A DNA stretch of 5,863 nucleotides. It comes from Chloroflexota bacterium. GTDB lineage: Bacteria > Desulfobacterota > Desulfuromonadia > Desulfuromonadales > Geopsychrobacteraceae. The notes below the pieces were generated by a model. It was not told the DNA's origin. It saw only the letters and a program-made list of their open reading frames with translations, and searched no databases. The position numbers and the translations under genes are program-made. The stretch is taken from NCBI GenBank assembly GCA_015222355.1, contig JADFVC010000303.1, positions 1-5,863 on the forward strand, in the 5' to 3' direction. Shown piece by piece: positions 4,438 to 5,863 of the stretch (positions within the stretch are counted from its first letter, which is position 1; every line of letters begins with the position of its first letter).

Positions 4438-4884
4438 TTGAACTATGGGCTGAGCCTCTACTTTAAGACTCACCGCCGGTATTACTACGAACTGCTCAAC
4501 AGTGTGCGCCTTACAGGTGACTGGGAAGTTTGGCTCGACTTTTTTGCTGAAGCGGTCACCTTTACCGCCACCCAAGCGGTGGAGACTGCTCAGCAGCTTC
4601 TTGATCTGTCGAACGAGGATCGGATGAAGGTCAGCGGACTTGGACGTGCGGCGGTTTCAACCCTGCAGGTGTATCGTGCGCTGATGGAGCATCCAATTGC
4701 CACATCAGGCTGGCTGGTGGAAAAGACCGCTATCACTCCAGCCACAGTCAACAAGGCTCTGGCACATTTGGAATGTCTTGAGATCGTCCGCGAGTTGACC
4801 CGACAAAAGCGCAACCGACTATTTAGTTACACCGGATACGTGGAGATTTTGAATCGAGGCACGGAACTTCCGGTCAGGGATTAG
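4438..4884 (+). pseudogene. Fic-family protein, C-terminal remnant (catalytic motif missing)
   Basis: The visible 148 residues match the C-terminal third of long Fic/DOC proteins (usually about 370 residues). They contain the LSLYFKTHRRYYYELL helix that follows the Fic core, then the GDWEVWLDFFAEAV and AVETAQQLLDL helices, and a winged helix-turn-helix at about 85-145 (ATSGWLVEKTAITPATVNKA, then RNRLFSYTGYVEIL). The catalytic HPFxDGNGR motif and the N-terminal domain, which should lie upstream, are absent: an in-frame TGA stands at 4420-4422 and the ald terminator is only 45 bases away. The only start is a TTG at 4438 without a ribosome binding site. An intact family member would transfer AMP from ATP to a protein target; this piece cannot. 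A pseudogene left by deletion is most likely. A short DNA-binding protein made from the wHTH part is a possible but weaker alternative. Confidence 0.8.
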
Positions 4885-5077: not shown

Positions 5078-5105
5078 TTGACCTCTCATTAAGTTCTGAT
5101 AGAAG
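5078..5105 (+). promoter_or_regulatory. Candidate sigma70 promoter upstream of the riboswitch
   Basis: TTGACC (5078-5083) is a strong -35 box. TAGAAG (5100-5105) lies 16 bases on and is a fair -10 box; TATAGA (5106-5111) is another -10-like word but with 22-base spacing. Transcription would start near 5112-5118, just before the riboswitch candidate. Confidence 0.5.
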
Positions 5106-5124
5106 TATAGATTAACATCACAAC

Positions 5125-5224
5125 AATATCGATAATCCCGATAAAGCCAATCCTTCTGTGAGGGGGGGGGACGGAAAGTGACGGGTCTTTGTGGACAAAG
5201 ATGGCCGAGCTGCCGAAGGATATT
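5125..5224 (+). ncRNA. GEMM-I (cyclic dinucleotide) riboswitch candidate, partly degenerate
   Basis: The 3' half matches the GEMM-I consensus as I know it. GGGACGGAAAG, TGACGGGTCT and GATGGCCGAGCTGCCGAAGG stand where GGGACGCAAAG, CCACGGGTCT and GATGGC..CCGGGTTGCCGAA are expected. The right arm folds as CGG/CCG plus TCTTTG/CAAAGA (5184-5199) with the TGG internal loop of the tetraloop receptor. The left arm can fold as CCTTCT (5152-5157), a GNRA tetraloop GTGA (5158-5161) and the G-run, after AGCCAATCC in place of GGCAAACC. AATATC (5125-5130) and GATATT (5219-5224) can close the structure. Deviations are the nine-G tract (5162-5170) and GTG instead of GCC at the base of the left arm, so binding may be weak. 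Family members sense c-di-GMP, or cGAMP in some Geobacter types; the ligand cannot be decided here. Confidence 0.66.
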
Positions 5225-5252
5225 AATCCAACGGTTGGGTTCGGCTTTTTTT
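5212..5252 (+). terminator. Intrinsic terminator sharing bases with the riboswitch 3' end
   Basis: GCCGAA (5212-5217) pairs with TTCGGC (5240-5245), directly followed by seven T (5246-5252). Inside are two small stems, GGAT/ATCC (5218-5229) and CCAA/TTGG (5228-5238), that can alternate. GCCGAA is also the conserved 3' end of the aptamer, so aptamer and terminator cannot form fully at the same time. This suggests an ON switch: ligand holds GCCGAA in the aptamer and lets transcription continue to the secreted-protein gene. Confidence 0.72.
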
Positions 5253-5356
5253 GTTTTCTGGATGGTGATGGGATCGAGTCAGGACGAGAGGGAACTTTTG
5301 TGGTGTAGCTGGAAGAGTCTTGTAAAGGTTTCTATATCGCTAATAGGAGGTTAAGC

Positions 5357-5380
5357 ATGCAAAAAACCAAACCATTCTGA
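5357..5380 (+). CDS. Seven-codon frame MQKTKPF with strong ribosome binding site (leader peptide or interrupted start)
   Basis: AGGAGG (5345-5350) is followed after six bases by ATG and the codons for MQKTKPF, then TGA at 5378-5380. Such a strong Shine-Dalgarno sequence before such a short frame is unusual. The same frame stays open after the TGA (VRSQQGLVQSKEGELISQLF, then KKDLQEAKT) and runs straight into the ATG of the secreted protein at 5468. It may be a leader peptide that affects downstream translation, or the true start of a longer protein interrupted by TGA. An A6 run (5361-5366) inside it could also be a slippage or sequencing-error site. No homology is recognised. Confidence 0.4.
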   Translation: MQKTKPF

Positions 5381-5467
5381 GTGCGATCCCAGCAGGGACT
5401 GGTTCAATCTAAAGAAGGCGAGCTTATTTCTCAACTCTTCAAGAAGGATCTTCAGGAGGCAAAAACT

Positions 5468-5863
5468 ATGAAGGGAAAATTTATTTTGGGGGTAGTGGGG
5501 GCGATTCTTTCATTAGCTCTGGCCCCATTTTTTTTCACCGATATCGCGTGTGCCGAGAACATTACAATAGAAAAGATATATCACCACCGTGATATACGAT
5601 CACCGAATTCCGTTGGTTATGCGATCGGGGACAGGTTGACGTTTGCTGTGAATATAATACCGAATGGCGATCTCGATGGCGATGGATTTGCTGACAGCGA
5701 CGGAACTTCACCCCCTTCTACCGTCATCGCCTTTCAAGATTCTGTGGAGCGGAATTTATTTTTCATCCCACTCTTTAATTCCCCGAACCACTTCGTGAGA
5801 TCCGTTTCCTACGACCCCTTGCTTATCGATTCCTGGCAACTTGAAATCACGAACGGGGATGAC
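5468..5863 (+). CDS. Secreted protein of unknown function with DxDxDG loop, 3' end outside the window
   Basis: The frame is open from ATG at 5468 to the window edge (132 residues, no stop), with AGGAGG (5454-5459) eight bases upstream. The N-terminus is a signal peptide: MKGK, a hydrophobic core (about 5-23) and the cleavage motif ACA before Glu30. The Cys at 28 is not in a proper lipobox because Asp25 occupies position -3, so a lipid anchor is unlikely. The mature part starts ENITIEKIYHH and continues with YAIGDRLTFAVNI, which looks like a beta-sandwich surface or exported domain. GDLDGDGFADSDG (67-79) has the Asp spacing of a calcium-binding loop as in EF-hands and dockerins. I recognise no named family. 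It lies behind a riboswitch candidate, promoter and terminator, so its expression is probably controlled by a cyclic dinucleotide. In related bacteria such switches often control surface and extracellular proteins, which fits. Confidence 0.72.
   Translation, partial: MKGKFILGVVGAILSLALAPFFFTDIACAENITIEKIYHHRDIRSPNSVGYAIGDRLTFAVNIIPNGDLDGDGFADSDGTSPPSTVIAFQDSVERNLFFIPLFNSPNHFVRSVSYDPLLIDSWQLEITNGDD

Follow-up and report, generated by a model that had tools for sequence, protein, structure and literature searches.

A predicted c-di-GMP-I ON riboswitch ahead of a likely exported protein, and the terminator layout of related aptamers across its bacterial order

Overview

The window analysed here, a stretch of 5863 bases that is one whole contig (G000:C216) in a 445-contig genome of 82% completeness, carries a c-di-GMP-I aptamer overlapped by an intrinsic terminator, and the two together are predicted from the sequence to act as an ON switch of transcription, controlling a gene whose product is likely exported, a reading to which we assign a probability of about 0.7. 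At low c-di-GMP the nascent RNA would fold positions 5203–5215 into the terminator and transcription would end near 5252, while binding of c-di-GMP would hold nucleotide C92, the pairing partner of one ligand guanine in known members of the family, and would block terminator formation, letting RNA polymerase continue into the gene. A secreted or surface component produced at high c-di-GMP fits the usual theme of the family. The window is a new member of an already known riboswitch family and, taken by itself, adds one further c-di-GMP-I switch; the tie between aptamer type and predicted switch direction seen across the order is a useful by-product.

The aptamer and its predicted ligand

The aptamer lies at 5136–5217 on the plus strand. 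An earlier note on this DNA had described a GEMM-I-like aptamer at this place, and the covariance model RF01051 (c-di-GMP-I) agrees, with 49.5 bits against a gathering score of 35 (E 1.1e-7 for the window). Positions follow the Vc2 numbering, in which the key positions are G20, the C22-G45 pair, A47 to A49 and C92, as given in PMC3764141. All three contact letters of the window are those of c-di-GMP-I (G20 at 5146, A47 at 5175 and C92 at 5213); C21-C22 fall at 5147–5148, G45-G46 at 5173–5174 and C92-C93 at 5213–5214. A GUGA loop of the GNRA type occupies 5158–5161, the AAA junction is intact, and C44 of the interhelical pair C44-G83 is present at 5172 (the C44 side was read). The pair 21-46 is C5147-G5174, a C-G pair in place of the consensus G-C of RF01051, and is referred to below as flipped.

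Position 25 is U in the window (5151). A25 is listed among the highly conserved positions in PMC3764141 and is treated here as a conserved, not a defining, position for c-di-GMP-I; it varies among the relatives as well. Together with the nine Gs in P2 and a score that is among the lower ones in the genus (11 of its 47 matches score lower than 49.5 bits), U25 would suit a decayed switch that has lost ligand binding and whose terminator acts on its own, a reading that we consider improbable, as the contact letters, the GNRA loop and the AAA junction are all intact and U25 or 8 to 9 Gs are also found in relatives from several genomes, P2 holding 7 to 9 Gs across the branch.

The earlier note had left the ligand as either c-di-GMP or cGAMP. 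An A at position 20 is the mark of the cGAMP type (GEMM-Ib), and an A20G change switched one such riboswitch to c-di-GMP, according to PMC6456294. This A is absent from the window, which has G at 5146, and c-di-GMP is therefore favoured over cGAMP; judged by the contact letters alone, c-di-GMP would be the predicted ligand, and the cGAMP half of the earlier proposal becomes less likely than it was put there. Position 20 predicts the ligand imperfectly: mutating the equivalent G of Cd1 is described as having no large effect (PMC9262584) and that of Vc1 as not fully abolishing binding (PMC4744006), and a natural GEMM-I switch that responds to both ligands has been reported (PMC6456294). That last report, like the A20-type aptamers in the genus, two of which (L026 and L031) by eye precede multihaem or iron-sulphur proteins, lends something to the alternative that the window's switch senses cGAMP, or cGAMP and c-di-GMP both, as some Geobacter switches do; with G at position 20 in the window and also in the second aptamer of the same genome, we hold this to be very unlikely.

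Genomic context

At gathering scores the RF01051 aptamer is the single RNA that Rfam finds in the window. The window's genome contains 14 GGDEF matches, two of them partial, which bear on the supply of the signal and speak for the ON-switch reading. It also contains two RF01051 matches, both of which have G at position 20 and CC at positions 21-22 (G20-CC). The second (L001, 541–619 of contig G000:C321, minus strand) is a riboswitch of the same type with a promoter similar to the window's and a terminator that likewise overlaps the aptamer, and its contig stops within 540 bases downstream. Elsewhere in the window, an inverted repeat whose 19-base arms match perfectly around a 4-base loop (2697–2738) stands between the genes for a DsbD-like protein and alanine dehydrogenase, and an ORF at 4438–4884 gives weak winged-helix matches only; we take the latter to be similar to the C-terminus of a Fic-type protein, and it may be a remnant.

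Promoter, terminator and leader

A promoter, which the earlier note had also seen ahead of the aptamer, is predicted on the plus strand (5078–5105), with TTGACC as −35 (5078–5083), a 16-nt spacer, a TG extension (5097–5098) and TAGAAG as −10 (5100–5105), the last two reading TG-A-TAGAAG; it scores 10.5 in a dedicated scan. A generic scan, which requires a T ending the −10, did not list this promoter; its three promoter-like sites lie on the opposite strand, against an expectation of 1.8. Among 40 G20-CC aptamers of the family, a site scoring at least 9.5 precedes 17, against 6.4% of shuffles, and the TG extension is present in 23, against 18% of shuffles.

The intrinsic terminator (5203–5252, plus strand) consists of arms at 5203–5215 and 5232–5246, an inner hairpin at 5218–5229 and a run of seven Ts at 5246–5252. 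RNA 5198–5253 folds at −24.4 kcal/mol (z −4.23), and one of 200 shuffles is as stable; a generic scan of the window listed no terminator. The terminator of the earlier note is thus present, although its pairing of GCCGAA with TTCGGC has to be redrawn as 5203–5215 with 5232–5246; the span given in that note, 5125–5252, takes in both aptamer and terminator. Its 5′ arm takes in the last strand of P3 together with C92 and C93, so that the bound aptamer and the terminator would be mutually exclusive, which is an ON layout. A classifier of switch platforms places the overlapping hairpin at −31.3 kcal/mol and the best separate one at −3.1 kcal/mol, i.e., no separate terminator hairpin, and the layout accordingly modelled supports the ON-type platform that had been suggested. 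Folded freely, the whole leader has the terminator state as its minimum, with P1 and P3 unformed; this is as expected of a ligand-free state and is no proof of switching.

Between the terminator and the gene lies a leader (5253–5467, plus strand) with a mini-ORF, MQKTKPF (5357–5380), that has its own AGGAGG; part of this leader is common to two other of the order's 136 genomes. The stretch 5340–5445 is conserved in L054, where mini-ORF and in-frame TGA are placed as in the window, the secreted proteins that follow in the two being unrelated; the later part of the stretch recurs with the same TGA in L127. A second RNA element was considered for the leader and discarded, given a fold no better than shuffles (z 0.30) and a pattern found in two other of 136 genomes; Rfam gave no match to it.

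The downstream gene and the targets of related aptamers

The ORF downstream (5468–5863, plus strand) is cut by the contig end after 132 codons. Its better start is ATG at 5468, with AGGAGG eight bases upstream (5454–5459). Residues 1–29 resemble a signal peptide by eye, with a hydrophobic segment at the start and a cleavage-like A-C-A/E site, and 5669–5686 encodes DLDGDG, a DxDxDG motif of a kind that turns up in 0.84% of sequences made by shuffling these residues; both are in keeping with the exported DxDxDG protein described previously, and the product is likely to be exported. It was also described as like none of the named families, and the 132-codon part indeed has no Pfam or NCBIfam family, the best Pfam match being FG-GAP below its cut-off (E 0.057 or 0.05). 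No relatives were found in the order's 136 genomes, in plasmids or viral contigs, or among proteins of 73–231 aa in a large protein search, and a PDB sequence search returned only E 0.86. One candidate relative among the genome contig matches listed (L124, Planctomycetota) was rejected as an unrelated FG-GAP protein aligning around GDLDGDGF, as were weak matches in genomes of the family (E 0.05–0.7): of the 12 lying in genomes other than the window's, we read all but L035, and these 11 look unrelated or run through stops. A structure prediction for the 103-residue mature part, made without relatives, has a mean pLDDT of 46.5. Since the ORF is cut off at 5863, missing relatives are weak evidence for the novelty of the protein, which the earlier note had put forward as perhaps a new extracellular component.

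A downstream ORF could be picked for 37 of the 40 CC aptamers, and a hydrophobic stretch of at least 2.6 starts within the first 25 residues of 16 of these 37, among them the window's. When 20 of the 37 were compared with Pfam, 13 matched something: PEP-CTERM (2), GDSL lipase, doubled CXXCH, VWA, FG-GAP, carboxymuconolactone decarboxylase, a beta-lactamase fold, nitroreductase, GYD, HSP20, DUF1326 and cupin, the last below its cut-offs. By their sequences, the targets of the flipped type appear diverse, with exported proteins common among them. A cupin-like protein starting MRIAKEDVP recurs in several genomes downstream of flipped-type aptamers (L018, L073, L103, L111 and L113).

Aptamer type and terminator layout across the order

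RF01051 matches occur in all 10 genomes of the genus (47 matches) and in 41 of the 44 genomes of the family (206 matches, under filters stricter than those of the genus search). We read 120 of the 206, namely the 47 from the genus and 73 picked from the higher-scoring matches listed; by positions 20 and 21-22 they divide into 43 G20-GC, 40 G20-CC, 27 A20-GC and 10 others, and the window's flipped type, G20-CC, makes up 26 of the 47 genus matches. Each aptamer was classed by script according to its best terminator-like hairpin, as overlapping where this includes C92/C93 and as separate where it sits wholly downstream; the script replaced a first classifier that had mixed the two. Among the 40 G20-CC aptamers the hairpin is overlapping in 37, separate in one and absent in two, whereas the 43 G20-GC aptamers have no overlapping hairpin, 39 separate ones and four with none. 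The 27 A20-GC aptamers are mixed (nine overlapping, 16 separate, two none). L026 and L031 are A20 (cGAMP-type) aptamers with overlapping terminators; by eye, the protein behind the former has CxxCH motifs and that behind the latter iron-sulphur-like cysteines. Three tandem pairs of unflipped G20 aptamers (L005/L013, L006/L014 and L007/L015), spaced about 240–260 bases apart and with OFF-like separate terminators, precede proteins with a signal peptide-like start and a KTVxLSWDxSPS motif.

A pattern search of the order's 136 genomes found the CC pattern in 61 and the GC pattern in 91. Outside the family, 80 CC stretches were taken, covering 85 of 95 rows (several of the 10 omitted are chance-like), and on these Rfam gave 85 matches, 60 to RF03167, 24 to RF01051 and one to RF03168, with one stretch (L133) lacking a match and another (L183) having one extra. 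The 85 comprise 74 overlapping, two separate and nine without a hairpin, although in 22 of the 74 positions 92-93 are not CC in frame and the aptamer end is perhaps off by 1–2 bases. From 40 picked out-of-family GC stretches the aptamer end could be placed in 28 (12 were dropped) by a script that, of 43 known cases, had agreed with Rfam on the end in 27, and of these 28, 25 are separate, one is overlapping and two have none. Combined, the layout is overlapping in 111 of 125 CC aptamers versus 1 of 71 GC aptamers and separate in 64 of the 71 GC aptamers, all counts being over related sequences.

The strength of the overlapping hairpins was set against a control in which the 28 bases preceding an imposed T run were shuffled. 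The loose threshold of −9 kcal/mol is reached by 111 of 200 such shuffles and alone proves nothing, so that the counts at or below −20 kcal/mol are the more trustworthy: 30 of 40 CC aptamers in the family and 65 of 85 outside it, against 4 of 200 (CC) and 0 of 215 (GC) shuffles. Separate hairpins arose in one shuffle of each set, of 200 and of 215, a comparison that is not like for like, with 28 bases in the control and 115 in the real search. On average, the arms of the overlapping terminators pair better with their own partners (mean −19.88) than when swapped (permutation mean −18.65, with 2 of 20000 permutations as low), and an outer helix of eight pairs is retained by 32 to 37 of the 37 sequences. 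In the G20-GC type, the separate hairpin repeats at least six bases complementary to the P1 strand in 29 of 39 cases as a raw count, and these bases could form an antiterminator; judged by layout, the separate terminators of the unflipped G20 type would fit OFF switches.

At 80% identity the 40 CC aptamers form six clusters, in each of which overlapping hairpins predominate, and the 43 GC aptamers form three, two mainly separate and one mainly without a hairpin. Since the aptamer sequences are related, shared descent of aptamer and platform may account for the link between type and layout, and it is the simplest reason for it.

Relation to the variant model RF03167

By E-value, RF03167 (c-di-GMP-I-GGC) fits the window slightly better than RF01051 does, and it is the best model for all 20 sources tested, the window included, of which six reach its cut-off of 59. 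The window scores 51.8 bits, below that cut-off, and its family at gathering scores is RF01051. We infer from the printed RF03167 consensus that the GGC of the name stands for positions 20, 47 and 92; position 47 is G there and A (5175) in the window, which thus misses membership on score as well as on G47. That the aptamer belongs to the RF03167 group and responds to another signalling molecule through the same ON terminator is accordingly unlikely in our view, though this would agree with the E-values, with the flipped pair adjoining the pocket (21-46) and with the RF03167 label given to 60 of the 85 out-of-family matches of the flipped type, since against it stand the score and the ordinary contact letter at position 47. 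Those 60 (among L132–L211) were labelled RF03167 although the search pattern had demanded A at position 47, and the model therefore does not enforce the letter that should be diagnostic for it. This suggests that it collects aptamers with ordinary contact letters and that its label is an unsafe guide to an altered ligand. The idea that the flipped type is wholly new was dropped, as Rfam already gathers much of it under RF03167.

Returning to the window as a c-di-GMP-I ON switch, a wider and quite tentative proposal is that aptamers with a flipped 21-46 pair form a distinct sensor type between RF01051 and RF03167 that is almost only ON-wired, with the unflipped G20 type OFF-wired in the same bacteria, so that one messenger, or two close ones, would be read in opposite directions by types differing in affinity or ligand, the window's protein being an ON target. 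Searches of open-licence papers turned up no account that connects pair 21-46 with the direction of switching. If aptamer type does predict direction in this order, many genes under riboswitch control could be sorted from sequence alone into likely c-di-GMP-induced and c-di-GMP-repressed ones.

Comparison with known riboswitches

The window resembles members of RF01051 in passing the covariance model and in having G20, A47, C92 and a GNRA loop, and differs from the consensus in the C-G rather than G-C pair at 21-46 and in U at position 25. Its likeness to RF03167 lies in the better E-value and in flipped-type relatives that often exceed that model's cut-off, in contrast to its own score and its A rather than G at position 47. 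Two characterised switches, as described in PMC9262584, mark the possible layouts. The pilM riboswitch of Geobacter metallireducens is an ON switch in which the ligand-pairing C is captured by the terminator, as is predicted for the window; pilM, however, senses cGAMP, whereas the window has G at position 20. The Cd1 riboswitch of Clostridioides difficile shares its aptamer family with the window but is an OFF switch in which aptamer and terminator can coexist, while in the window the two share bases; it is the unflipped G20 aptamers of the order that resemble Cd1 more.
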